A stretch of DNA of 64,000 bases from Flexithrix dorotheae DSM 6795 (GTDB lineage Bacteria > Bacteroidota > Bacteroidia > Cytophagales > Flammeovirgaceae): the NCBI RefSeq assembly GCF_000379765.1, contig NZ_KB903476.1, forward strand, positions 310,204 through 374,203, in the 5' to 3' direction. Made by a program: the position numbers and the translations under genes. The notes under the pieces are model-generated. The model worked only from the letters and a program-made list of their open reading frames with translations, ran no database searches and was not told the DNA's origin. Below are positions 11,775-24,277 of the stretch, piece after piece (within the stretch, counting starts at the first letter, position 1; every line of letters begins with the position of its first letter).

Positions 11775-14483
11775 ATGATAAGAATAGGATTTCCACCAAC
11801 TATAAAAAAAGAAATTCCTTCAGCAGGACTAACACAGCGGCAAGTGCTGACAATAGTCAGAGAAGCAGCCTGGAATATGCAATGGAATGTATTGTATAAT
11901 TCTGAAGAAGGTCTGGTAGCCCGTACTTCACCCAGCCTAAATTCTAATGGAGAGGAAATCATAATTCGCACCAATACCAATGAAAACAGAATTTGCAGCT
12001 ACAGCTTGAAAGAAGCTATAGTGGATAAAGGGGAAAACAGCAGGAATATCAATGCTTTTATCAGGGAGTTTAAATCTATAAAAGCTAAAAAAGACGGTTT
12101 CGACCTGAACAGGGACTACCTTAAAATTGCAGGATACTTACAGGAAGGCCGGGATCATTTATTGGAATTTCCCCTTTCCGAATCAGAAAAAATAAAACAG
12201 GCATTTGGTTTTATCATCCCGTCCAAATCCTATTTTATCACCCCAACTATCATTATTCTAAATGTCCTTATTTTTTTGGTTATGTTGCTTTCAGGAGTTG
12301 ACTTCTTATGGCCTGAAGTAGATGATTTGATTAAATTTGGCGCAAGTTCCAAAGAAATTACCCTACAAAACCAATGGTGGAGAATCCTTACCTGTTGCTT
12401 CCTGCATTTTGGAATTTTCCATTTAGCAATGAACATGTGGGTATTACAGGATATAGGCCGATTTCTGGAAGCCTTTTTAGGCAGAACCAAATTTGTAATT
12501 GCCTATTTATTGTCAGGAATTTTCAGTTCTTCCCTGAGTTTGTGGTGGCACGATTTTACCATTAGTGTAGGCGCATCAGGAGCTATTTTTGGCTTATTCG
12601 GTACCTTTCTCTCCCTTAATGCTACCGGAATTATTGACAGGATGATGAACCGAAACCTTCAGAAAAAAATCCTTCTGTTTATAGGTTTCAGTCTGATGAT
12701 AGGTTTTCTTGTGCCGGTATTTGATAATGCCGGGCATATTGGCGGGCTGATAGGAGGAATTTTGGTCGGGTTTGCCTACTTGCCCGAATACATTAACCCT
12801 CAATCAAAATTAAAAAAATTCAATATCATCCTGCCTTCTATATTAATACTGAGTATCAGTGGGGGAATTCTTGCATTTACCTCCAATTGGTCAGTTGCCT
12901 ACAATGAAGGCATGGAGGTTTTTCAGACAAATGAAGAGGAAGCCTTGCGCTATTTCGATTTCCCCGAAGAAGTCACCACAGCAGAAAGAATTTCCCTACT
13001 CCGAAATTCCAGTATTCCGGCAAATGAGGCAAACATTCAATTGATGGAAGAAGTAGGAGATATTCAGGGATTACCCACTGATCTTAAAAAAAAGGCCATC
13101 CTTTTATTGGAATATTCTCAACTCAGGAAAAAACAATTTGAATTAATTGCCGGATCGCTAGAACAAAAACCAGGAATCACGCGGGAGGTTTTACAGGAAG
13201 TGGAAGACCAGATTGAATCGATCAAGATTGCGCTCAACCCCGATTCTCCCGGCTTATATTTTGACAGAGCCGAGCGCAAAATTGAAGAAGGGAAATATGA
13301 GGAAGCCCTTTCCGATATGAATATTGTGATCGGAATGATGCCCAAACAATCTAAATTTTATGAGACCAGAGCCAGAATTCACAAAGCATTGTTTCACTTT
13401 GAGCAGGCGGTTGAGGATTATGAAATGGCAGCAAAGTACGGTTATGATGTAAGAAGAGCATTTTTGGATATTGGATACTGCTGGAATAGACTCAGGCAAT
13501 TCGAAAAGGCACTGGAAGCCTATTCCAAAGTCATTTCCTTCGATCCCACCTCGGCTTCGGCTTACAATGGAAGGGGCTGGACCCATTTCCAGCTAAGGGA
13601 ATATGATAAGGCATTTGCCGATTATAAAATGGCACTGGAGCTTTACCCCGCATACTCCACCATTTACAACAATATTGGGCTCATCTATCAGTACAAAGGA
13701 AATACTGACAGTGCTACCTATTATTACAATATGGCCATAGAAATGGACCCTGCACATGATTTTCCCCATCAAAATCTCGGCAGAATTGAAAGCCAGAAAG
13801 GCAATGACGCTAAAGCACTTGTCCATTATAACAGTGCCGTTGCAGCTGATGAATTCAATCCTGATAATTATTACTTAAGAGCCATTACCCTAATTAACCT
13901 CAAAAAAAAGGAAGCACTCGATGATATTGAAATGGCTATATCACTTAACCCCAGAGATCCTGACTTTTACCGGGTAAGGGGCCTTGCCTGGTTCGAATTG
14001 TTTGGCAACTATGAAAAGGCGCTTAAAGACTATAGTTATACCATTTCCCTGGCTCCCAAGGATATTTTTGCCTATTTAAGCAGGGCCAATTTTTTTACTG
14101 ATGCCGGAAAATATGAGCAGGCTTATCAGGATTACCAGATCGTAATGCAACTGGACTCCAATTATGCATCTGCTTATGGAAACTCAGGCTGGGTAAAATA
14201 TCTGCAGGGAGAATATGAAGCATGTATTGAACTTTCGAAAAAAGCCATTTCCCTTGATTCTAATGCCTTTTATGCAATGTACAACCTTGCCCTGGCTGAA
14301 TTAAACCTGGGGCATTTTGAAAAAAGCAAAAGCTTGTATAAACAATATCGCGATAAAAACATTGAAGTGAACGGAAAAGTAAATTCAGGAGCCATTGAAG
14401 ATCTGAAAGACCTCATTCAAAAGGGAGTTTTGCAGGTTGAAGCAGAAACAATCCTCAATGATATATTTAATGTACAAATTTGA
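11775..14483 (+). CDS. Rhomboid-family intramembrane serine protease fused to TPR repeats
   Basis: The 902-residue protein has a cytoplasmic N-terminal region (1-150) followed by a rhomboid domain (about 155-340). The domain shows the HFGIFHLAMN motif, the catalytic serine in VGASGAIFG (S269), and the catalytic histidine in NAGHIGGLIGG (H321). A further TM near 350-370 is followed by about 500 residues of tetratricopeptide repeats (clearest from 495, for example AYNGRGWTHFQLREYDKAFADY). Rhomboids cleave transmembrane helices of substrate proteins within the membrane; TPR arrays bind partners, so substrate recruitment is a reasonable inference. It is divergent from the BlaI/M56 operon, with the palindromic operators in the shared 308-bp gap. 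Standard bacterial rhomboids are 200-300 residues, so this is a large fusion. Confidence 0.88.
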   Translation: MIRIGFPPTIKKEIPSAGLTQRQVLTIVREAAWNMQWNVLYNSEEGLVARTSPSLNSNGEEIIIRTNTNENRICSYSLKEAIVDKGENSRNINAFIREFKSIKAKKDGFDLNRDYLKIAGYLQEGRDHLLEFPLSESEKIKQAFGFIIPSKSYFITPTIIILNVLIFLVMLLSGVDFLWPEVDDLIKFGASSKEITLQNQWWRILTCCFLHFGIFHLAMNMWVLQDIGRFLEAFLGRTKFVIAYLLSGIFSSSLSLWWHDFTISVGASGAIFGLFGTFLSLNATGIIDRMMNRNLQKKILLFIGFSLMIGFLVPVFDNAGHIGGLIGGILVGFAYLPEYINPQSKLKKFNIILPSILILSISGGILAFTSNWSVAYNEGMEVFQTNEEEALRYFDFPEEVTTAERISLLRNSSIPANEANIQLMEEVGDIQGLPTDLKKKAILLLEYSQLRKKQFELIAGSLEQKPGITREVLQEVEDQIESIKIALNPDSPGLYFDRAERKIEEGKYEEALSDMNIVIGMMPKQSKFYETRARIHKALFHFEQAVEDYEMAAKYGYDVRRAFLDIGYCWNRLRQFEKALEAYSKVISFDPTSASAYNGRGWTHFQLREYDKAFADYKMALELYPAYSTIYNNIGLIYQYKGNTDSATYYYNMAIEMDPAHDFPHQNLGRIESQKGNDAKALVHYNSAVAADEFNPDNYYLRAITLINLKKKEALDDIEMAISLNPRDPDFYRVRGLAWFELFGNYEKALKDYSYTISLAPKDIFAYLSRANFFTDAGKYEQAYQDYQIVMQLDSNYASAYGNSGWVKYLQGEYEACIELSKKAISLDSNAFYAMYNLALAELNLGHFEKSKSLYKQYRDKNIEVNGKVNSGAIEDLKDLIQKGVLQVEAETILNDIFNVQI

Positions 14484-14558: not shown

Positions 14559-14948
14559 ATGACACTAAAAATGATGAAACTCCTTAAAATTTCTTTGTTT
14601 TCTTTAATGGTTATGCTGAGTTCATTTTCATTAAAAGCACAATTACTTCCAACCAACCTGGAAATTACTGTGCTGGATGAGAAAGGAAATATCCAACCCG
14701 GAGCATCTGTAAAAATCTACGAAAGCGAAGAAGATTATAAGAATGATAAAAATGCCATTAACACAGGGAAAACTGACGAAAAGGGTAAAATAAAATTTAA
14801 AAAACTGAAAACACAGGCCTATTTTGTAAAAGCGGTTAAAGGGGACCTGAATAACGATGATGGAGCCAACCAGACCAGCATTCTGGTAGAAAAGAAAACC
14901 AATAAGGTAAATATTATTATAGAAGGTTTTGGCACCCTGAAACATTAA
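14559..14948 (+). CDS. Small secreted carboxypeptidase-regulatory/Cna-B-like domain protein
   Basis: This 129-residue protein has an N-terminal signal peptide (hydrophobic to about residue 26, ending SLKAQ). The mature part is one beta-sandwich of the carboxypeptidase-regulatory or Cna-B type, recognised by ITVLDEKGNIQPGASVKIYESEEDY, TDEKGKIKFKKL and the final VNIIIEGFGTL strands. Such domains are structural and often bind ligands or stabilise extracellular proteins, so no enzyme activity is expected. It is expected in the periplasm or outside the cell. It has its own promoter and a strong terminator (14971-15011), so it is probably monocistronic. No partner is evident; the rhomboid gene upstream is transcribed in the same direction. 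Confidence 0.75.
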   Translation: MTLKMMKLLKISLFSLMVMLSSFSLKAQLLPTNLEITVLDEKGNIQPGASVKIYESEEDYKNDKNAINTGKTDEKGKIKFKKLKTQAYFVKAVKGDLNNDDGANQTSILVEKKTNKVNIIIEGFGTLKH

Positions 14949-15101: not shown

Positions 15102-16598
15102 ATGCATTATAGAATTACCCTTACTTTCTGTCTCTCACTAATTTTATTAATAATAGGTTTTCAGTCCATTGCCCAAACCAATCGCTACTGGGCCCAAAAT
15201 TTTAATGCCGAAGCCTCTTTAATGGGTGGAGCCGTTGTGGGGGGAAGAGCGGGAAATACCGCTATTTTTTACAATCCTGCGCTTATATCCGATGTTGGGA
15301 CTGCCAAACTTTCTATTAATGCCAATTTGGTGGCACTCGATTTTTATTCCGCAACCAATTTCTTAGGGACCAACCTTTCCCTTTCTTTATCAAATTTCAT
15401 TTTACAACCCAGATTTATTTCATTTCTGGTAAAATCAAAAAATGATAAAGTCAAAATAGAAATTGCCAGTTTTACCAGGGATCAGTCTGAATTTGATGTT
15501 TTGGATGGCGTAAGAAGAGAAGCGGAAGTATTTGAAATTCTTCCCGGGAATGAACTCTATAACGGGACAGTGGAAAACATCAATCATTACAAAGACCTTT
15601 GGTTCGGTGGAGGAGCTTCCTACAAATTGTCAGACAGGTTCACTATTGGGGCCAGTGGGTTTCTTTCTGTCAAAAGTTTAAAAGAAAAATTTTTGGTTGA
15701 TGTGAATGCTTCCTTAAAAAATGATACGGTGTATGTAGAAGATATCGCGGTTGCCTCTTTCAATTCTTCTTTTCGTCAGCTTGAACGGATAAAGCTGAAT
15801 AATTACAGGTTCGTAGGAAAACTTGGCATGCAGTATCAAATGGACAACTGGGGTTTGGGTTTAAACCTGACTTTACCTTCAATAAATTTAGCTGGCAAGG
15901 GAGAGGTATTAAGGGAAATCAGTTATACCAATATTCCTGATTCTACGGGCCAGGCTTTCATCCCGGATTTCCTTATTTCCGACTGGCAAACCAAACTCCC
16001 GGCAGATTATAAAGACCCTTTTTCTTTAGCATTAGGATTTAATTACACTGCGCCAAATGGCAAAACATTTCTGAGTGCCTCAATTGAATATTTTGCAAAA
16101 ATTGCTCCTTATAAAATGATAACCGCAGAAGTAAATGAAAATATTACCACTGAAGAAAACTATGAAAGACTAACCAATAAAGAATTTCTGAGCATTGTAA
16201 ATGGAGCAAATGCCATTACCAATATTGCTATTGGGCTGGAAAAAGAAATTTCTGAGGAAATGGTTATTCTGGGAGGAGTGAGAACTGATTTTAATTTTCG
16301 AAAGGATTTTGATTTTAAAGAATTTTCAGATTTTAGAAACCAGCAGGGGATTGAATATGATGTCTATCACCTTACTGGTGGGGCAAAGTTCAATATTAAA
16401 GCAAGTAATATTATTCTTGGCATTCAGTATTCCATAAGCAGGGAAAAAGACCTCAAACAATTGGTGGATCTGGGTACCCCTTCTGAGGGCACAGATCCTC
16501 CTCTGCAGGGTACAATTGATAATGATGTGAAGTTTGCCTACAATGGTGTGGGAATTTTCTTTGGATTTAACCTGAATTTCGGTGGTGAAAAAAATTAA
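15102..16598 (+). CDS. OmpP1/FadL-like outer membrane beta-barrel protein
   Basis: The 498-residue product has a signal peptide ending near IGFQSIAQ (about residue 24) and a mature start of the FadL/OmpP1 type: GGAVVGGRAGNTAIFYNPALIS resembles the early asparagine-proline motif of FadL-like channels (NPA, where the family takes up hydrophobic substrates). The rest alternates hydrophobic and polar residues in strands with turns such as KLSDRFTIGASGFLSV and WGLGLNLTLPS, and ends in GIFFGFNLNFGGEKN. This fits an outer membrane beta-barrel. Transport of fatty acids or other hydrophobic compounds is a family-based guess, because many Bacteroidota members have other or unknown roles. No operon partner is visible; the next gene is 138 bp downstream. 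Confidence 0.75.
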   Translation: MHYRITLTFCLSLILLIIGFQSIAQTNRYWAQNFNAEASLMGGAVVGGRAGNTAIFYNPALISDVGTAKLSINANLVALDFYSATNFLGTNLSLSLSNFILQPRFISFLVKSKNDKVKIEIASFTRDQSEFDVLDGVRREAEVFEILPGNELYNGTVENINHYKDLWFGGGASYKLSDRFTIGASGFLSVKSLKEKFLVDVNASLKNDTVYVEDIAVASFNSSFRQLERIKLNNYRFVGKLGMQYQMDNWGLGLNLTLPSINLAGKGEVLREISYTNIPDSTGQAFIPDFLISDWQTKLPADYKDPFSLALGFNYTAPNGKTFLSASIEYFAKIAPYKMITAEVNENITTEENYERLTNKEFLSIVNGANAITNIAIGLEKEISEEMVILGGVRTDFNFRKDFDFKEFSDFRNQQGIEYDVYHLTGGAKFNIKASNIILGIQYSISREKDLKQLVDLGTPSEGTDPPLQGTIDNDVKFAYNGVGIFFGFNLNFGGEKN

Positions 16599-17082: not shown

Positions 17083-17115
17083 AAAGGTTCTTTTTGCAAA
17101 GAACCTTTTATTTTT
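17083..17115 (+). terminator. Intrinsic terminator after the small cysteine protein gene
   Basis: AAAGGTTCTTT (17083-17093) and AAAGAACCTTT (17098-17108) form an 11-bp perfect stem with a 4-nt loop, followed by a T-rich tail. It is 122 bp after the stop codon of the small membrane protein. Confidence 0.85.
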
Positions 17116-17237: not shown

Positions 17238-19610
17238 ATGATTAAAAAAGGTATTTTCTGTTTGCTGTTATTTCCATTCTTTTTTCTACAGGGATTTGCC
17301 CAAAGCCTTACAGAAACTGCTTTTAATAATACCTACCTCACCGCAAAAGTTTCAGATCCACAAGATGAACCTTCTATTACTAATTTAATTCGACTTGGTG
17401 TAAGGGCCTTTTACCTGGAAACCCTTTCTGCCCAATCCACCCCAGTATTTTTAAAAAACCTCCAAACTATCCCAGATAATCTGGGACCTCAAAACATCAT
17501 CCTCATTATTGGGAAAACTATTAATAAAGACACATACTATACTCTACTTGAAAAATCCGGAATAAAACAGGATGCATTCATTTCCCTTTTTGAAGCACAA
17601 GACTTTTGGCATGTAGAATATGAGAATCAGCGAATTACCAGTATCCATGGAGATTTGCAGGAAAAGCTGGTTTTTTGCAATATCATTGAAAAAAACTGGA
17701 ACAATGAACTTGTAAATCCAAACACACAATTTATAGAGCTGGTGCTTTCCTTCTGGCAACAAACAGGAAGAAAACCCAATTTTGTCTGTTTCACCCCTAC
17801 CCCATTTGGGTTTTCTGTTACAGAACTACTCAATCAGACCAATTCCATTTTAAAGGTAAGTGGTGAGGTTAATTTTCAGCAAAAATTATTAGAAGAAATT
17901 ATATGGGAAAAAGAAATACCGGCCATTACCGGAGGAAAATTTTCCTTTCCCCACTTTGCAGGACAGCGGATAAATCTCAAACCAGAAAAGCCCGGATTCG
18001 ATTTCCATCCCCCTTCTTTTGAATCCACTGATTTAAAACAGGACTCTACCATTTCCTTTGAGGGTACAATCAAAAATATTGGAGAAAATCTGGTGGCCTG
18101 GTACCCATTCGATGAAAACTTTGACAATTTTTCCAATTTACCCTTAAAAAAAGTTGAATCAGAAAACACCCAGATCAAAAATGATTTATCCAGAAAAAAA
18201 GTAGCTGAATTTTCTGGCAAATCATTCCTAAAACTTCCTCCGGTGGAAGCTTTAGGACTTAATGATCAGGATTTTACCATCAGTTTATGGATAAAGGCCG
18301 ATACTTTAATAGATGAAGATGAACCCATTATTTCTACTTTTAAAAGAAAGTTTCGTGAAGGGTTGCATTTGATATTCAGAGATCAGAAACCTTATATGGG
18401 TTTTCATAGTGATGATATCAATGGGAATTTCAAAATAAAAGCCGGGCAGTGGTATCACGTAGTTTGGCGCTACTACAAAAACCTGGGAGAAAGGGCCATT
18501 TTTATTAATGGGAAACCAGATAAAAAGGTCCGGAATCTGGCTTCATTTAAGGGAGATGGGGAAATCTATTTAGGAGTAAGAAGAACTGCCGATGAAGAAA
18601 GAGACTACTTTCAGGGCAAAATGGATGATTTGGCCATCTGGAACCGCGCATTGGGTGATGAGGAAATTAAGGCGCTTTATCTGGGAAAAGAAATTAAACC
18701 CCTTTCTCTGGCAAAAAAGAATACACCCTTTCTTCCCTTCTTTGTGGTTGGAGGAATCCTATTAATTGGTGCTTTAATTTATTTCAGAAAAAGAGAACAC
18801 AAACCTGAACAAACTAAGGAAATTGCGGGTACTCCCAAGCCTGAGGACAAATCTGCTGCTTTGCCAAAAAGAAATATGGTGAAATTGTTTGGCATTTTCA
18901 CTGCAATTGATAAAAATGGAAACGATATTACCAGAGACTTTACACCAAGAGTGAGGCAACTGTTCTTGCTTCTGGTTTTCTATTCTTCCAAATTCCCTCA
19001 GGGAATATCGGTAGAAGAATTATCACGGGAAGTTTGGCCCGACTTAGATTTGGAAAAAGCCGCCAATAACAGACGGGTAAACATGAAGAAGCTCAGGGCC
19101 CTTTTAGCCAACTTTGAAGGGCTGGAAGTGGTGCATACAGAGAATTTCCTCAAATTGCAATATTCGTCTCCATTCTATTGCGATTATTTTGAATTCAAGC
19201 AGTTAACGGATCAGTTCTTAAATACTAAAAAACCGGAACAGGCTGCTTACAAACAGTTTTTGCAATTTATAAACAGCGGCCAGTTTTTACCAAAAATTGA
19301 AGGAGAATGGTTGGACCCTTTTAAAGAATTTGTTTCCAATTTTACCATCGATTACTGTTTGGAGTTAATCAAATCCTTCCCGGCAGAAGATGACGAAATC
19401 AAAATTAACCAGATAACCAAAATTATTTTTCTTTACGATCCTTTTAATGAAGAAGCCCTGGCCTTTCTTATGCAGCATTTTATAAGTTCCAATAAAACTC
19501 AGCTGGCCAAACACACTTACAACGATTTCAAAAAAGCCTACCAGGATGCATATGACGAGGATTTCCCTAAAAGTTTTGAGGAAATTTTGGCTACAACCAA
19601 CCTTCAGTAA
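17238..19610 (+). CDS. Membrane-spanning regulator: phosphodiesterase-like domain, LamG, TM, SARP-type winged helix
   Basis: This 790-residue protein has a signal peptide (1-22) and a periplasmic segment (22-250) resembling a degenerate PI-PLC-type barrel, with LIRLGVRAFYLET in the place of the GVRxxDLR motif but no clear catalytic histidines. A LamG domain follows (285-485: LVAWYPFDENFDN, FTISLWIKAD, YHVVWRYYKN, MDDLAIWNRALGDEEIKALY), then one TM (497-516). The cytoplasmic part (547-645) looks like the winged helix of SARP/AfsR regulators (RQLFLLLVFYSS, EELSREVWPDLD, NNRRVNMKKLRALL), with a helical BTAD-like tail (650-790). It would sense an extracytoplasmic ligand and bind DNA without a kinase. 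It converges on a DUF5916 gene with a 5-bp gap. Target genes are unknown; the N-terminal call is the weakest part. Confidence 0.7.
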   Translation: MIKKGIFCLLLFPFFFLQGFAQSLTETAFNNTYLTAKVSDPQDEPSITNLIRLGVRAFYLETLSAQSTPVFLKNLQTIPDNLGPQNIILIIGKTINKDTYYTLLEKSGIKQDAFISLFEAQDFWHVEYENQRITSIHGDLQEKLVFCNIIEKNWNNELVNPNTQFIELVLSFWQQTGRKPNFVCFTPTPFGFSVTELLNQTNSILKVSGEVNFQQKLLEEIIWEKEIPAITGGKFSFPHFAGQRINLKPEKPGFDFHPPSFESTDLKQDSTISFEGTIKNIGENLVAWYPFDENFDNFSNLPLKKVESENTQIKNDLSRKKVAEFSGKSFLKLPPVEALGLNDQDFTISLWIKADTLIDEDEPIISTFKRKFREGLHLIFRDQKPYMGFHSDDINGNFKIKAGQWYHVVWRYYKNLGERAIFINGKPDKKVRNLASFKGDGEIYLGVRRTADEERDYFQGKMDDLAIWNRALGDEEIKALYLGKEIKPLSLAKKNTPFLPFFVVGGILLIGALIYFRKREHKPEQTKEIAGTPKPEDKSAALPKRNMVKLFGIFTAIDKNGNDITRDFTPRVRQLFLLLVFYSSKFPQGISVEELSREVWPDLDLEKAANNRRVNMKKLRALLANFEGLEVVHTENFLKLQYSSPFYCDYFEFKQLTDQFLNTKKPEQAAYKQFLQFINSGQFLPKIEGEWLDPFKEFVSNFTIDYCLELIKSFPAEDDEIKINQITKIIFLYDPFNEEALAFLMQHFISSNKTQLAKHTYNDFKKAYQDAYDEDFPKSFEEILATTNLQ

Positions 19611-19615
19611 AGCTT

Positions 19616-21868
19616 CTACAAATTCAACCAATAAGTAAATTTTGCCACCAATGCCCGGTTTTTACTGGCAAACGTGTCTGGAAAATAATTTTCGGTATAC
19701 ACCAAAAAGAAATCGGAAACTGGTTTATATCGGTATTGTAATCGCGCATTGATATTTACATTATCAATCTGATTGTTATATTGGAAATAGGTTGTTAAGA
19801 AAACCTTGCGAGAAAACGTAATGTCAAATCTTGGCCCAAACAGGAAAATTTTTCCACTAGAATAAGGTTCCGGAAGATTAATATCATTGTAAGAAAAATT
19901 TAGTGTGGCAATGCCGTAAGGCTGAAACCTGTAGTTGACATTTCCAGCCATTCGGTAGAGGCTTCCATTAAAAAAACCTCCTCCCTGTCCTTCTAATTCA
20001 TAAAATATTTTCTTCCTTTTATCAGACTCATAAATTAAAAGTAAATTGGAATAATTGTAGGATTCGCCCATGGGTAAAGGCTCTCCATTTCCTGATCTGG
20101 TAGGATCAAAATCTTCAAAAAGATAGGTGTATTGATTTTGAATAGCCCCGGTAAATTCTGCATTGGTTTTAAAAACAATATTGTAATTTAAGGCATAATT
20201 ATGATCCGTTTTCCCATCCTGATCATTCCATATATATTCCGTGGAAACTCCAGGGCCGTGGTTGGCAATTATTTTATCGGAATAAAAAGTGAATTTTACG
20301 CTGGGAGCTACTCTTTTGTAGTTGTTCCGGGGGACAAAACCGACTTCAGGGTCATAGTATTTTCCCACGATCTGGTGATCCCAGGTTAAAGTAAGCCATG
20401 GGATATTATAAGCCAAAGTAGCCCCGTGAGCAAAATCTTTTTTTGACTCCTCATTTTCGTAAATATTATGATGGTAAAAGAACTTACCTGTCCATTTATT
20501 ATCGGCTGAGGCAAGGTTATAATCCAAACCTAAAGTTCGGTTATAATTGCTCTTATCAATTCCCCATTCCAGGGTAGAATCCTGGGAGAATTGATGAGTA
20601 GACTGTTTATTAATGAATATGGCAGAAATGTTTGACCTAGAGAAAACCTGCCTTTGCAAAGCCATAACTGAATAATTATAACCTGGCAAATTAATACTAT
20701 TATCCTTTTTGGTCTGCAAATTCATGACTCCAATACGCCAGTTTTTATCAATTCTGCCACTTAAACGTGCACCGTAAGTTATAGGCACAGGCACATTAAT
20801 TCCAGTATTTCTATCCAAGGCAATTCCAATTCTTCTGGAAAAAAATGGGCGAATATTGTCGGTACCAAATGAGGCAAATAGATCAGCATTTTCCAGAAAA
20901 AACTGTCTTTTTTCAGGAAAAGATAATTCGAATCTGGTAATGTTAGTCTGCTGATCATCAACTTCCACCTGAGAAAAGTCCGGGTTAATGGTCAGGTCAA
21001 GATTAAGAGATGGAGTGATTCCTATTTTGGCATCACCACCTAAGTCGAATCCATATGTTGTGGGTTCACCATCTATAAAGTTTCTGCCTGTATTTCCTGC
21101 AACATAGGGAATAATAGAAATATTCGAACCGGGCTTTTTTAAAGGTTCTTCAAAATCCAGATAACCTCCAAATGCCGGAGAAACAATAGACTGATTTCGG
21201 GGAATATGACCCCAACTGGAAGAGGTAGCCGTTTTACTGTCTAGTCGGTAAAAATTGGCAAACCAGGTTTTTGCTCCTTCTTTATACCTTAGTGTTTTAA
21301 ATGGAATAGCCATTTCCGCAGTCCAGTAGCCATCATGAATTTTAGCTTCTCCATACCATTTGTTGTCCCAGGACAAATCGAACCCACTTCGTACCTGGCT
21401 GGTTCCTCCACTCCCACTTCCGGAAATTCCAGAAATTAAGCCCTCCCTCCGGACGCCAAAAGGATTGATACCGAAAAAGGTAGCATTGGTTTTATCCTCG
21501 AATGGATCAAGCACAACGGTAATCACATCATTCTCCTTTCCCCTGAAATCTCTTCTCAAAGAAGTAGTTACATAACCCCCGGGGACCGGATCTAAACACC
21601 TGACCCCGAAATAAAGAAATTGATCATCATAGGCCATTCTAATCTCTGAAATGGTAGAGGAATAGGAGGTATCGTAGGGAAATTGCTCCCAAAATGGCTG
21701 AGAAACCGGGGCTGTTTCCCAAAATGCTTCTGTCAATTCCCCATCCACTTTTATTTTCCCTTCAAGCCTTTTCACGGCAAGCCTTCTTTCTTCCTCCTGA
21801 GCTATTAAAGGGTGTTTAAAAACAATAAATAATGCAATAAGGTAAAAAATTCTCCTATAAGACAACAT
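19616..21868 (-). CDS. DUF5916 outer-membrane protein with N-terminal CBM9-like domain
   Basis: The 750-residue product has a signal peptide (ending near KHPLIAQ) followed by a beta-sandwich of the CBM9 type used by this family (RLEGKIKVDGELTEAFWETAPVS ... FGVRCLDPVPGG ... KENDVITVVLDPFEDK). A long C-terminal region alternates in strands (YNFNIVFKTNAEFTGA-like, NYRFQPYGIATLNFSYNDI, YRYKPVSDFFLVYTENYF) and fits an outer membrane beta-barrel. DUF5916 proteins are frequent in Bacteroidota, and their function is not established; carbohydrate binding and outer-membrane location are inferred from the domains. The gene converges on the LamG/SARP regulator with only five bases between the two stop codons and no terminator. 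No promoter of the usual form was found upstream. Confidence 0.85.
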   Translation of the reverse strand: MLSYRRIFYLIALFIVFKHPLIAQEEERRLAVKRLEGKIKVDGELTEAFWETAPVSQPFWEQFPYDTSYSSTISEIRMAYDDQFLYFGVRCLDPVPGGYVTTSLRRDFRGKENDVITVVLDPFEDKTNATFFGINPFGVRREGLISGISGSGSGGTSQVRSGFDLSWDNKWYGEAKIHDGYWTAEMAIPFKTLRYKEGAKTWFANFYRLDSKTATSSSWGHIPRNQSIVSPAFGGYLDFEEPLKKPGSNISIIPYVAGNTGRNFIDGEPTTYGFDLGGDAKIGITPSLNLDLTINPDFSQVEVDDQQTNITRFELSFPEKRQFFLENADLFASFGTDNIRPFFSRRIGIALDRNTGINVPVPITYGARLSGRIDKNWRIGVMNLQTKKDNSINLPGYNYSVMALQRQVFSRSNISAIFINKQSTHQFSQDSTLEWGIDKSNYNRTLGLDYNLASADNKWTGKFFYHHNIYENEESKKDFAHGATLAYNIPWLTLTWDHQIVGKYYDPEVGFVPRNNYKRVAPSVKFTFYSDKIIANHGPGVSTEYIWNDQDGKTDHNYALNYNIVFKTNAEFTGAIQNQYTYLFEDFDPTRSGNGEPLPMGESYNYSNLLLIYESDKRKKIFYELEGQGGGFFNGSLYRMAGNVNYRFQPYGIATLNFSYNDINLPEPYSSGKIFLFGPRFDITFSRKVFLTTYFQYNNQIDNVNINARLQYRYKPVSDFFLVYTENYFPDTFASKNRALVAKFTYWLNL

Positions 21869-22858: not shown

Positions 22859-24277
22859 TTACAATTCAAAACTTTCCCCTTTCTCGGGAATATGAATATT
22901 CTGGTAGTCTTTTTCCTCCAGCAATTCCTTGAAGTCTTCCATGGAATCAGGCTCTCCATGCACCAGAATAATTTTTTTCAATTCCTCTGGAGATTGAGCC
23001 TCCACAAATTGCAACAGGTCCTTCTGATCGCCATGGCCACTGAAAGCATCGGTATGCTCCACTTTTGCCATTACCGGAACTGTTCTTTTTCCCATCACTA
23101 CATTAGCTCCTGAGTTCACCAATCGGTGTCCGAAAGTTCCTTCGGCACTGAAACCAACCATCAGAATAGTACAGCGGGCATTACCCAGGTTTTCCTTGAT
23201 ATGATTCTGAATTCTTCCACCTTCCAGCATACCTGATGAGGAAATGATGATACAGGATTCATTGCTTTTGGAAATCATGATGCTTTCCTTCAGGTCATCA
23301 ATGTATTCCAGATTATCCAGATAGAAAAGCGCTCCTTTCTCATCTTTAAAATCCCTGGCTTCTTCATTCAGGTAAGTCGTATTTTGTTCATACACTTTGT
23401 TGCTTTTCCTTGCCAGGGGGCTATCTGCATAAATCTTAACAGCAGGCATATTTCCTTTGGAAAACAGTTTATTCAGTGTATAAATAATCGCCTGGGTTCT
23501 GCCAATACTGAAAGCGGGAATGATTAATTTTCCGGCCATATCCACACAGGTTTTCTGAATGGCATTTCGCAATTCCTCCTCCGTTTCCACTTTCGACTGG
23601 TGCAACCTGTTGCCATAAGTAGTTTCACAAACCAGATAATCTACCTGATCAGGCTTTTGAGGGTCGGGCAATAAGGGATAATTACTCCTTCCGACATCTC
23701 CCGAAAACATGATTTTTTTGGACTTCCCATTTTCAAAAACTTCCAGCAATACATTGGCAGCCCCAAGTAAATGCCCGGTAGGAATTAAAGTAAGTAAAAG
23801 ATCTTTTTTTACTTTAGTTCTTTTGTTGAATGGAAGAGTAAGAAATTGTTCCAAAGATTTATTTACATCCTTTTCCAGGTAAATTTCATCGGGATTAAAA
23901 TCTGGTTTGTAGCCGGGATTTCTACTGCGTTTTTTCTGGAAATGTTTGATTTTTCTCCGGTTGATATTGGCAGAATCAAGCAGGAGTAATTCGGCAAGTT
24001 CCATGGTAGGACCAGTGCAAATAATCTTCCCCTCAAACCCTTCTCGAAACAGGTTGGGAATTCTACCGGAATGATCCAGGTGTGCATGGGTAAGAATCAC
24101 CAGATTAATCATGCTGGCATCAAAAGGAAAGGCAGAGCCGGGATATAAGGCATCATTAGTTTGCCCCTTCCCCATTTCCATTCCGCAGTCAATTAAAATC
24201 CGAAAATCATCCTCCAGTTCTAATAGAAAAACACTTCCTGTTACCTGCTTTGCAGCTCCCCAAATGGTTAATTTCAT
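22859..24277 (-). CDS. Beta-CASP family metallo-beta-lactamase (RNA-processing type)
   Basis: The 472-residue protein shows the metallo-beta-lactamase signature THAHLDHSGRIP and later zinc-binding segments (GHLLGAANVLLE and FSGDVG), followed by the beta-CASP insert and C-terminal motifs (SSSGMLEGGRI, FSGHGD and LVHGEPD). This is the CPSF73/YSH1-like architecture of RNA nucleases and exonucleases. Bacterial members are usually called MBL-fold with an RNA specificity domain. It should be a cytoplasmic zinc-dependent hydrolase acting on RNA, though its target is not known. The promoter at 24301-24333 overlaps the end of the DUF4230 gene, so it is transcribed separately. No terminator is strong downstream; a weak 4-bp hairpin followed by five T on the transcribed strand is at 22795-22807. 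Confidence 0.9.
   Translation of the reverse strand: MKLTIWGAAKQVTGSVFLLELEDDFRILIDCGMEMGKGQTNDALYPGSAFPFDASMINLVILTHAHLDHSGRIPNLFREGFEGKIICTGPTMELAELLLLDSANINRRKIKHFQKKRSRNPGYKPDFNPDEIYLEKDVNKSLEQFLTLPFNKRTKVKKDLLLTLIPTGHLLGAANVLLEVFENGKSKKIMFSGDVGRSNYPLLPDPQKPDQVDYLVCETTYGNRLHQSKVETEEELRNAIQKTCVDMAGKLIIPAFSIGRTQAIIYTLNKLFSKGNMPAVKIYADSPLARKSNKVYEQNTTYLNEEARDFKDEKGALFYLDNLEYIDDLKESIMISKSNESCIIISSSGMLEGGRIQNHIKENLGNARCTILMVGFSAEGTFGHRLVNSGANVVMGKRTVPVMAKVEHTDAFSGHGDQKDLLQFVEAQSPEELKKIILVHGEPDSMEDFKELLEEKDYQNIHIPEKGESFEL

Follow-up and report, generated by a model that had tools for sequence, protein, structure and literature searches.

The regulator locus and its conservation

The window analysed here is a stretch of 64,000 nucleotides from Flexithrix dorotheae DSM 6795, the genome of which measures 9.54 Mb. 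The list of open reading frames of the window contains one of 790 amino acids, starting with ATG, which converges on a gene of the DUF5916 family. The features of the locus are:

17083..17108, no strand assigned: intrinsic-terminator-like hairpin 5' of the gene (11-bp stem and T run)
17238..19610, plus strand: regulator gene for a predicted membrane-tethered SARP-type protein of 790 residues (reading frame, copy in the genome L003, paralogue on G000:C6)
17238..17303, plus strand: putative signal peptide, residues 1-22 (read from the sequence by eye)
17304..18092, plus strand: probable N-terminal periplasmic domain, about residues 23-285 (A2 profile; full-length matches confined to the window's genus)
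18219..18671, plus strand: LamG / concanavalin-like domain, residues 328-478 (PF13385, E 1.1e-20)
18729..18785, plus strand: single transmembrane helix, residues 498-516 (hydropathy)
18786..18869, plus strand: putative cytoplasmic linker, residues 517-544 (between the helix and the start of the next domain)
18870..19172, plus strand: SARP-type winged helix-turn-helix, about residues 545-645 (profile alignment, invariant residues)
19173..19607, plus strand: BTAD-like helical domain, about residues 646-790 (profile alignment, helices of the model)
19616..21868, minus strand: convergent DUF5916 gene (PF19313, E 1.4e-26), its N-terminal part CBM9-like but below cut-off, its product probably an outer-membrane barrel

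The 790-residue reading frame is real and not a chance one, since a second genome (L003, a Flammeovirgaceae MAG) carries an intact copy of 792 residues that aligns to residues 1-788 of the window protein, its best segment being 74% identical (E 0). The initial annotation had named conserved neighbours in other genomes as a check, and the genes around the regulator are indeed the same in L003. One protein encoded near the regulator (15102-16598, plus strand, 498 residues) has no Pfam match and resembles an outer-membrane barrel; its sole match in L003/L019 is a reading frame of 105 residues. Another gene of the window (22859-24277, minus strand) encodes a Beta-CASP/RMMBL protein of metallo-beta-lactamase fold, probably an RNA-processing nuclease.

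The genome of the window also has a paralogue of the regulator, on G000:C6, with 788 residues and the same plan. Its LamG domain is recognized by Pfam (E 5e-19) and its C-terminal part is 31% identical to that of the window protein. The counterpart of this paralogue in the second genome of the genus (G187) is locus L021.

The hairpin upstream of the regulator gene is conserved in L003 and suggests that the gene has its own promoter, but taken alone it is not significant, as the region contains 7 terminator-like sites versus 6.1 in shuffled sequences. Promoter- and terminator-like sites in this region stand at about the shuffle level, and no convincing operator motif was shared by the upstream regions of the two genomes or of the paralogue loci.

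The sensor part and membrane topology

The signal peptide (MIKKGIFCLLLFPFFFLQGFAQ, followed by S) was recognized by inspection. Within the extracytoplasmic part, the LamG_3 family scores 74.8 bits against a curated cut-off of 27.6, and at E<=1 Pfam adds a marginal pentaxin match and nothing more; a histidine kinase, receiver or AraC domain was not found in the window protein at this threshold. Among PDB sequences, the LamG part aligns best with a pentraxin (E 8e-5). These results agree with the initial annotation in its description of a kinase-free single chain with an extracytoplasmic LamG domain and one transmembrane helix.

The transmembrane helix (hydropathy 2.42) is preceded by a net charge of +3 over 12 residues and followed by a net charge of +2 over 12 residues, so that the charge rule alone leaves the orientation of this protein unsettled. 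The signal peptide, together with the relatives described below, in which 27 of the 28 proteins with a transmembrane helix have a positive stretch after it, favours an orientation with the N-terminus outside and the C-terminus inside. From a signal peptide and one transmembrane helix in a Gram-negative organism we infer a periplasmic sensor part, and a signal from outside the cell would consequently have to cross the outer membrane first.

Residues 23-285, approximately, have no Pfam or PDB assignment, and their full-length relatives are four proteins of one genus. The profile built from these four rows (A2) found 2 of the 194 genomes of the order, both from the window's genus, and among 395 genomes of the phylum it found the window's own and three partial, weak hits. 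This domain had been interpreted as a degenerate PLC-like barrel, and our comparisons with Pfam, PDB and PI-PLC-X proteins do not support that interpretation. None of the phosphodiesterase families matched at E<=10, hhalign of A2 against three PI-PLC-X proteins gave 0.07%, and a single histidine (H239) is invariant in the four rows versus the two catalytic histidines of PLC phosphodiesterases. The AlphaFold model of the extracytoplasmic part, made from a 2-row alignment and of low confidence (mean pLDDT 31), begins with alternating strands and helices, a pattern that fits many alpha/beta folds. The four-row profile is weak and may miss a distant kinship of fold. The phospholipid signal that had been proposed as one of the inputs depended on the barrel and is therefore also unsupported.

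The C-terminal part is related to SARP regulators

The C-terminal part of the window protein, with 246 residues, was aligned with 14 others to give the profile A1, of 15 C-terminal domains. In this part of the protein no Pfam family is over its cut-off (Trans_reg_C reaches E 0.05), and PF03704 (BTAD) has no match anywhere in the genome of the window, so by the curated cut-off the protein would not be called a SARP. The same family is found below threshold in 3 of the 15 members (best E 0.049), the window protein not being among them.

The relationship emerged from the comparison of profiles. We aligned A1 by hhalign to a profile of six Bacteroidota SARP/BTAD proteins (A5), five of them with PF03704 over cut-off and the sixth, L110, from a genome outside the PF03704 list, and obtained 99.0% with E 5.8e-18 over 221 columns, covering the winged helix and BTAD together at 16% identity. 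The unrelated domain A2, used as a control against the same six proteins, gave 0.1%. Because all six A5 proteins were already A1 matches, an extra test used 19 loci chosen by PF03704 alone, those that matched this model best (E 1.5e-26 to 1.1e-11). A1 matched 17 of these at E<=3e-5 (database size 1000), missing L071 and L077, and on the 19 reversed sequences it gave nothing at E<=10. In one relative, L107, the NCBIfam AfsR model matches the same region as A1 does (E 1.3e-19).

In searches of the PDB, A5 found AfsR (8hvr, E 1e-13) and EmbR (2fez, E 2e-10) along almost all of its length, with several designed TPR proteins as the top rows above both, and A1 found no SARP. BTAD is TPR-like, and the profile signal could therefore stem in part from the BTAD half alone. 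Residues invariant in all 15 rows of A1, from four genera, are W600 and, in the putative recognition-helix region of the winged helix, N610, N611, R612 and L619. AlphaFold modelling of the C-terminal part (254 residues) from a 2-row alignment gave a mean pLDDT of 50, with helices at 77-88 in residues 201-250 of the model and the remainder mostly poor. Foldseek with this poor model returned no match at E<=0.001; EmbR (E 0.35) and AfsR (E 0.52) appear in its list amid numerous TPR proteins, and we give this result no weight.

Taken together, the sequence profiles establish the C-terminal part as a SARP-type winged helix followed by BTAD, with a predicted role in DNA binding. The cytoplasmic module of SARP/AfsR type with a BTAD-like tail that the initial annotation had described is thus borne out by the A1-A5 alignment and by the proteins picked through PF03704.

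A family of membrane-tethered SARP-type proteins

Searching with the single C-terminal domain found relatives in 14 of the 194 order genomes, and the A1 profile had matches at E<=0.001 in 32 of the 395 genomes of the phylum, with E below 1e-40 in 11. The phylum scan scored at most seven candidates per genome and weaker SARPs may consequently be missed; E-values within the loci compared were computed for the reading frames of those loci, and for L113, chosen because of a weak A1 match, the match was absent on this rescan. Of 31 family reading frames, 28 have by hydropathy a transmembrane helix ahead of the C-terminal domain, and the three without a clear one are a sensor-only frame (L099), a SARP-only frame of 271 residues (L100) and one with a weak helix (L101). 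Judged from these sequences, the window protein is one member of a family of membrane-tethered SARP-type proteins.

The sensors of this family differ. Nine ectodomains from the order were aligned (A7, leaving out L022, L026, L031 and L033) and Pfam assigned a kelch family at E<=0.01 to seven, the two without including L034. When the nine are combined in one profile, it matches kelch structures, and on the basis of this alignment all of them are termed kelch-type here. Outside the order, the sensor of L099, the sole one scanned with Pfam, is also kelch, and L105 has a weak match to a mutarotase-type model. The kelch-type ectodomains and that of the window protein are unrelated (0.2%).

We built a tree of 37 C-terminal rows, labelled by locus, from which L019, L022, L031, L104 and rows under 35 bits or about 170 residues were excluded. 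It separates 26 rows of the tethered family from 11 other BTAD rows with a support of 88/94, a decent though not a decisive value; the LamG-type rows do not form a supported clade.

Several loci show other arrangements of these parts. In L099 (3902-6459) a kelch sensor of 485 residues and a transmembrane-SARP part of 364 residues occupy two reading frames a few bases apart, whereas the L097 relative is one frame of 838 residues, pointing to a split gene or a frameshift in L099. In L100 (3849-7573) a tethered protein forms a tandem pair with the SARP-only copy that has no transmembrane helix, and in the tandem pairs of L103 (4325-8819) and L104 (4363-8857) each protein has one. The pairs in these three loci may form heterodimers.

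Gene neighbourhoods of the kelch-type and LamG-type proteins

All 11 kelch-type loci of the order, not counting the near-copies L022 and L031, have a SusC- and/or SusD-cluster gene within 6.1 kb of the regulator; within the stretch compared, L027 has SusC alone and L032 SusD alone. GH92 is present in five of the 11, four of these also with a WbsX/GH99-like gene. The assignment to SusC and SusD rests on BLAST clusters; Pfam, run on representatives, identified TonB-dependent receptors (L025, L028), SusD types (L025, L030) and GH92 (L025, L030). For a random gene of these genomes, the probability of lying equally near a PF07980 SusD gene is roughly 8-17%, and at most about 34% should the number of SusD genes be double; this estimate counts PF07980 alone, whereas the genes found also include SusC and SusD-like_2. 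The 11 loci are moreover akin, and by our count of tree and context they represent four or five groups and not 11 cases. In L023 (5253-5942) and L027 (7926-8516) a gene for an ECF sigma factor lies between the regulator and the SusC-type gene, so that the uptake genes there may be under a different regulator.

Outside the order, one of nine loci (L105; stretches of 9-12 kb, L104 set aside) has SusC nearby, with a SusD match just beyond, and in six of the eight genomes of these loci PF07980 has no match. Proximity to SusC/SusD is thus not a general feature of the tethered-SARP family. The window locus itself has no SusC/SusD or glycoside hydrolase gene among the neighbours scanned or clustered.

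The neighbour of interest in the window is the DUF5916 gene. The initial annotation had noted that it converges on the regulator gene with a 5-bp gap, which is correct (19611-19615), and had proposed it as a possible target or partner. At the paralogue locus (L020, and L021 in the second genome), the genes downstream in the same direction encode a NagB-like protein, a Gfo/Idh/MocA protein, two 3-keto-disaccharide hydrolases and again a DUF5916 protein. A GH29 fucosidase gene is divergent at 0.8 kb in L020, with none at the corresponding place in L021. Also near this locus is a gene for a RelE-like toxin (L020 1255-1584, minus strand, PF06296), for which the L021 reading frames of at least 90 residues include no counterpart. 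The CBM9-like part that falls below cut-off in the DUF5916 protein of the window is over cut-off in that of L021.

The genome has four DUF5916 genes, and each of the two LamG-type loci is linked to one of them. The two linked proteins are mutual nearest relatives, 44% identical versus 24-29% to the remaining pair, a pattern that joint duplication of regulator and DUF5916 gene would produce. With random placement and independent loci assumed, the chance of two genes lying so near any of the four is about 2.5e-5, and if both loci arose by one duplication they count as one event and not two. With no more than four such genes in the genome and one of them linked to each LamG-type locus, the DUF5916 protein is a likely partner or target, and this linkage, which strengthens the proposal of the initial annotation, is the best clue to what the window gene acts on or with. 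Our full-text search of the open PMC literature found no paper on DUF5916.

Proposed mechanism and alternatives

We consider it fairly probable that the window protein is a kinase-free one-component transmembrane regulator, with a periplasmic glycan sensor, a SusR-like topology and a SARP output. The periplasmic part, made up of the genus-specific domain and LamG, would bind a glycan fragment or a glycan-linked ligand, or alternatively would contact an outer-membrane protein that has bound its ligand, the DUF5916 product for instance. The resulting change would be relayed through the single transmembrane helix and the 28-residue linker to the cytoplasmic winged-helix and BTAD module, which might dimerise on promoter DNA close to the inner membrane and there recruit RNA polymerase as SARPs do, acting as an activator rather than a repressor. 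The likely targets would be the adjoining DUF5916 gene and, for the paralogue, the co-directional run of sugar-metabolism genes.

It is rather unlikely that the ligand is something other than a glycan; in that case the signal could be a protein of the envelope, for example the DUF5916 barrel. LamG/pentraxin-type domains are able to bind proteins or calcium, which gives the pentraxin match of the LamG part some weight here, and the contact of FecR with the outer-membrane protein FecA is a model for a signal from such a barrel. Within the stretches compared, DUF5916 is the sole neighbour family common to the two LamG-type loci, and at the window locus the neighbours scanned include no sugar genes. 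Glycans are favoured by the DUF5916 gene of the paralogue, which lies among sugar genes, and by the CBM9-like part of the DUF5916 proteins.

The tethered module need not act from the membrane if intramembrane cleavage frees it as a soluble SARP, perhaps by a rhomboid protein with TPRs that is encoded in the window (11775-14483, plus strand, 902 residues with a long TPR run) and that is a possible protease partner of the regulator. Its rhomboid domain (E 5e-31) is fused to the TPRs, and the gene lies 2.8 kb upstream of the regulator gene in the same orientation, separated from it by the reading frames 14559-14948 and 15102-16598. Proteolytic release is a live alternative because this gene is upstream in both the window and L003; in addition, the transmembrane helix contains small residues likely to weaken a helix (VVGGILLIGA), and the SARP-only copy of L100 lies beside a tethered one. 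However, the 8 of 11 L021 neighbours and the three L020 neighbours scanned with Pfam include no rhomboid, and proximity in a single genus is weak evidence, so we regard release by cleavage as improbable. Equally, the C-terminal module might be a scaffold for protein interactions that does not bind DNA, with LamG serving in adhesion or envelope sensing. The predicted DNA-binding part is distant from other SARPs, at the low identity given above and below Pfam cut-offs, and BTAD is a TPR-like interaction fold with TPR proteins as top PDB rows. The invariant residues of the putative recognition helix and the extension of the SARP alignment over the winged-helix part argue against a scaffold, as do the relatives from the order, which adjoin uptake genes as local regulators would, and this explanation seems quite unlikely to us.

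Comparison with known systems

Three types of regulator are described for sugar loci of Bacteroidota, namely SusR-like proteins, hybrid two-component systems and ECF sigma/anti-sigma pairs (PMC3878776). Tethered SARPs with exchangeable lectin-type sensors, kelch or LamG, that read periplasmic sugars directly and without a kinase could tentatively be added as a fourth class, a proposal to which we give slightly less than even credence. Our searches of the open PMC literature listed no earlier account of tethered SARPs that carry a lectin or kelch sensor. If the proposal is true, a module best known from the control of antibiotics in Streptomyces reads periplasmic sugars, and the SARP module would be seen to work from the membrane as well. 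A further type of regulator with SARP-like output would yield pairs of regulator and sugar that can be tested and would account for gene neighbourhoods now without a recognised regulator, and the DUF5916 family would gain its first functional lead.

Regulators of the ToxR/CadC type have an N-terminal cytoplasmic winged helix, then a transmembrane helix and a periplasmic domain. The window protein would resemble them in combining periplasmic sensing and winged-helix output in one chain without a kinase, but its domain order is reversed, with the DNA-binding part C-terminal. Two other loci of this study, L110 (1281-4172) and L119 (1751-4156), encode an N-terminal SARP/BTAD part followed by a transmembrane-like segment, that is, a SARP output in ToxR-like order.

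SARPs are usually soluble proteins that carry the module at their N-terminus or close to it, and the AfsR structure rows from the PDB search with A5 fit this position. The initial annotation had described SARPs as normally soluble, which agrees with this, and as normally actinobacterial; they are not confined to Actinobacteria, as 19 of 296 phylum genomes have PF03704 at E<=1e-10. By sequence profile the window protein has in common with AfsR and other Streptomyces SARPs a winged helix and then BTAD, over the 221 columns of the A1-A5 alignment, but its module forms the C-terminal, probably cytoplasmic end, behind a signal peptide, LamG and a transmembrane helix. AfsR binds as a side-by-side dimer to a box over the -35 element and contacts region 4 of sigma (PMC10936776).

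The hybrid two-component systems of Bacteroidota join a periplasmic sensor to a DNA-binding output, and many of them are encoded next to sugar-utilisation genes (PMC3878776). The window protein would likewise have sensor and output in one chain, but by Pfam it is without the histidine kinase, receiver and AraC domains.

SusR of Bacteroides thetaiotaomicron sits in the membrane, its sensor in the periplasm and its DNA-binding part, at the C-terminus, in the cytoplasm (PMC3878776). The terms SARP and BTAD are absent from the main text of that paper, and in the description given there the DNA-binding domain of SusR resembles no other known one, which would set it apart from the SARP-like A1 domains. 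In other respects SusR is a close parallel: the window protein has the same order of sensor, transmembrane helix and C-terminal DNA-binding part, probably the same membrane location and no kinase, and its relatives from the order are encoded beside SusC/SusD.
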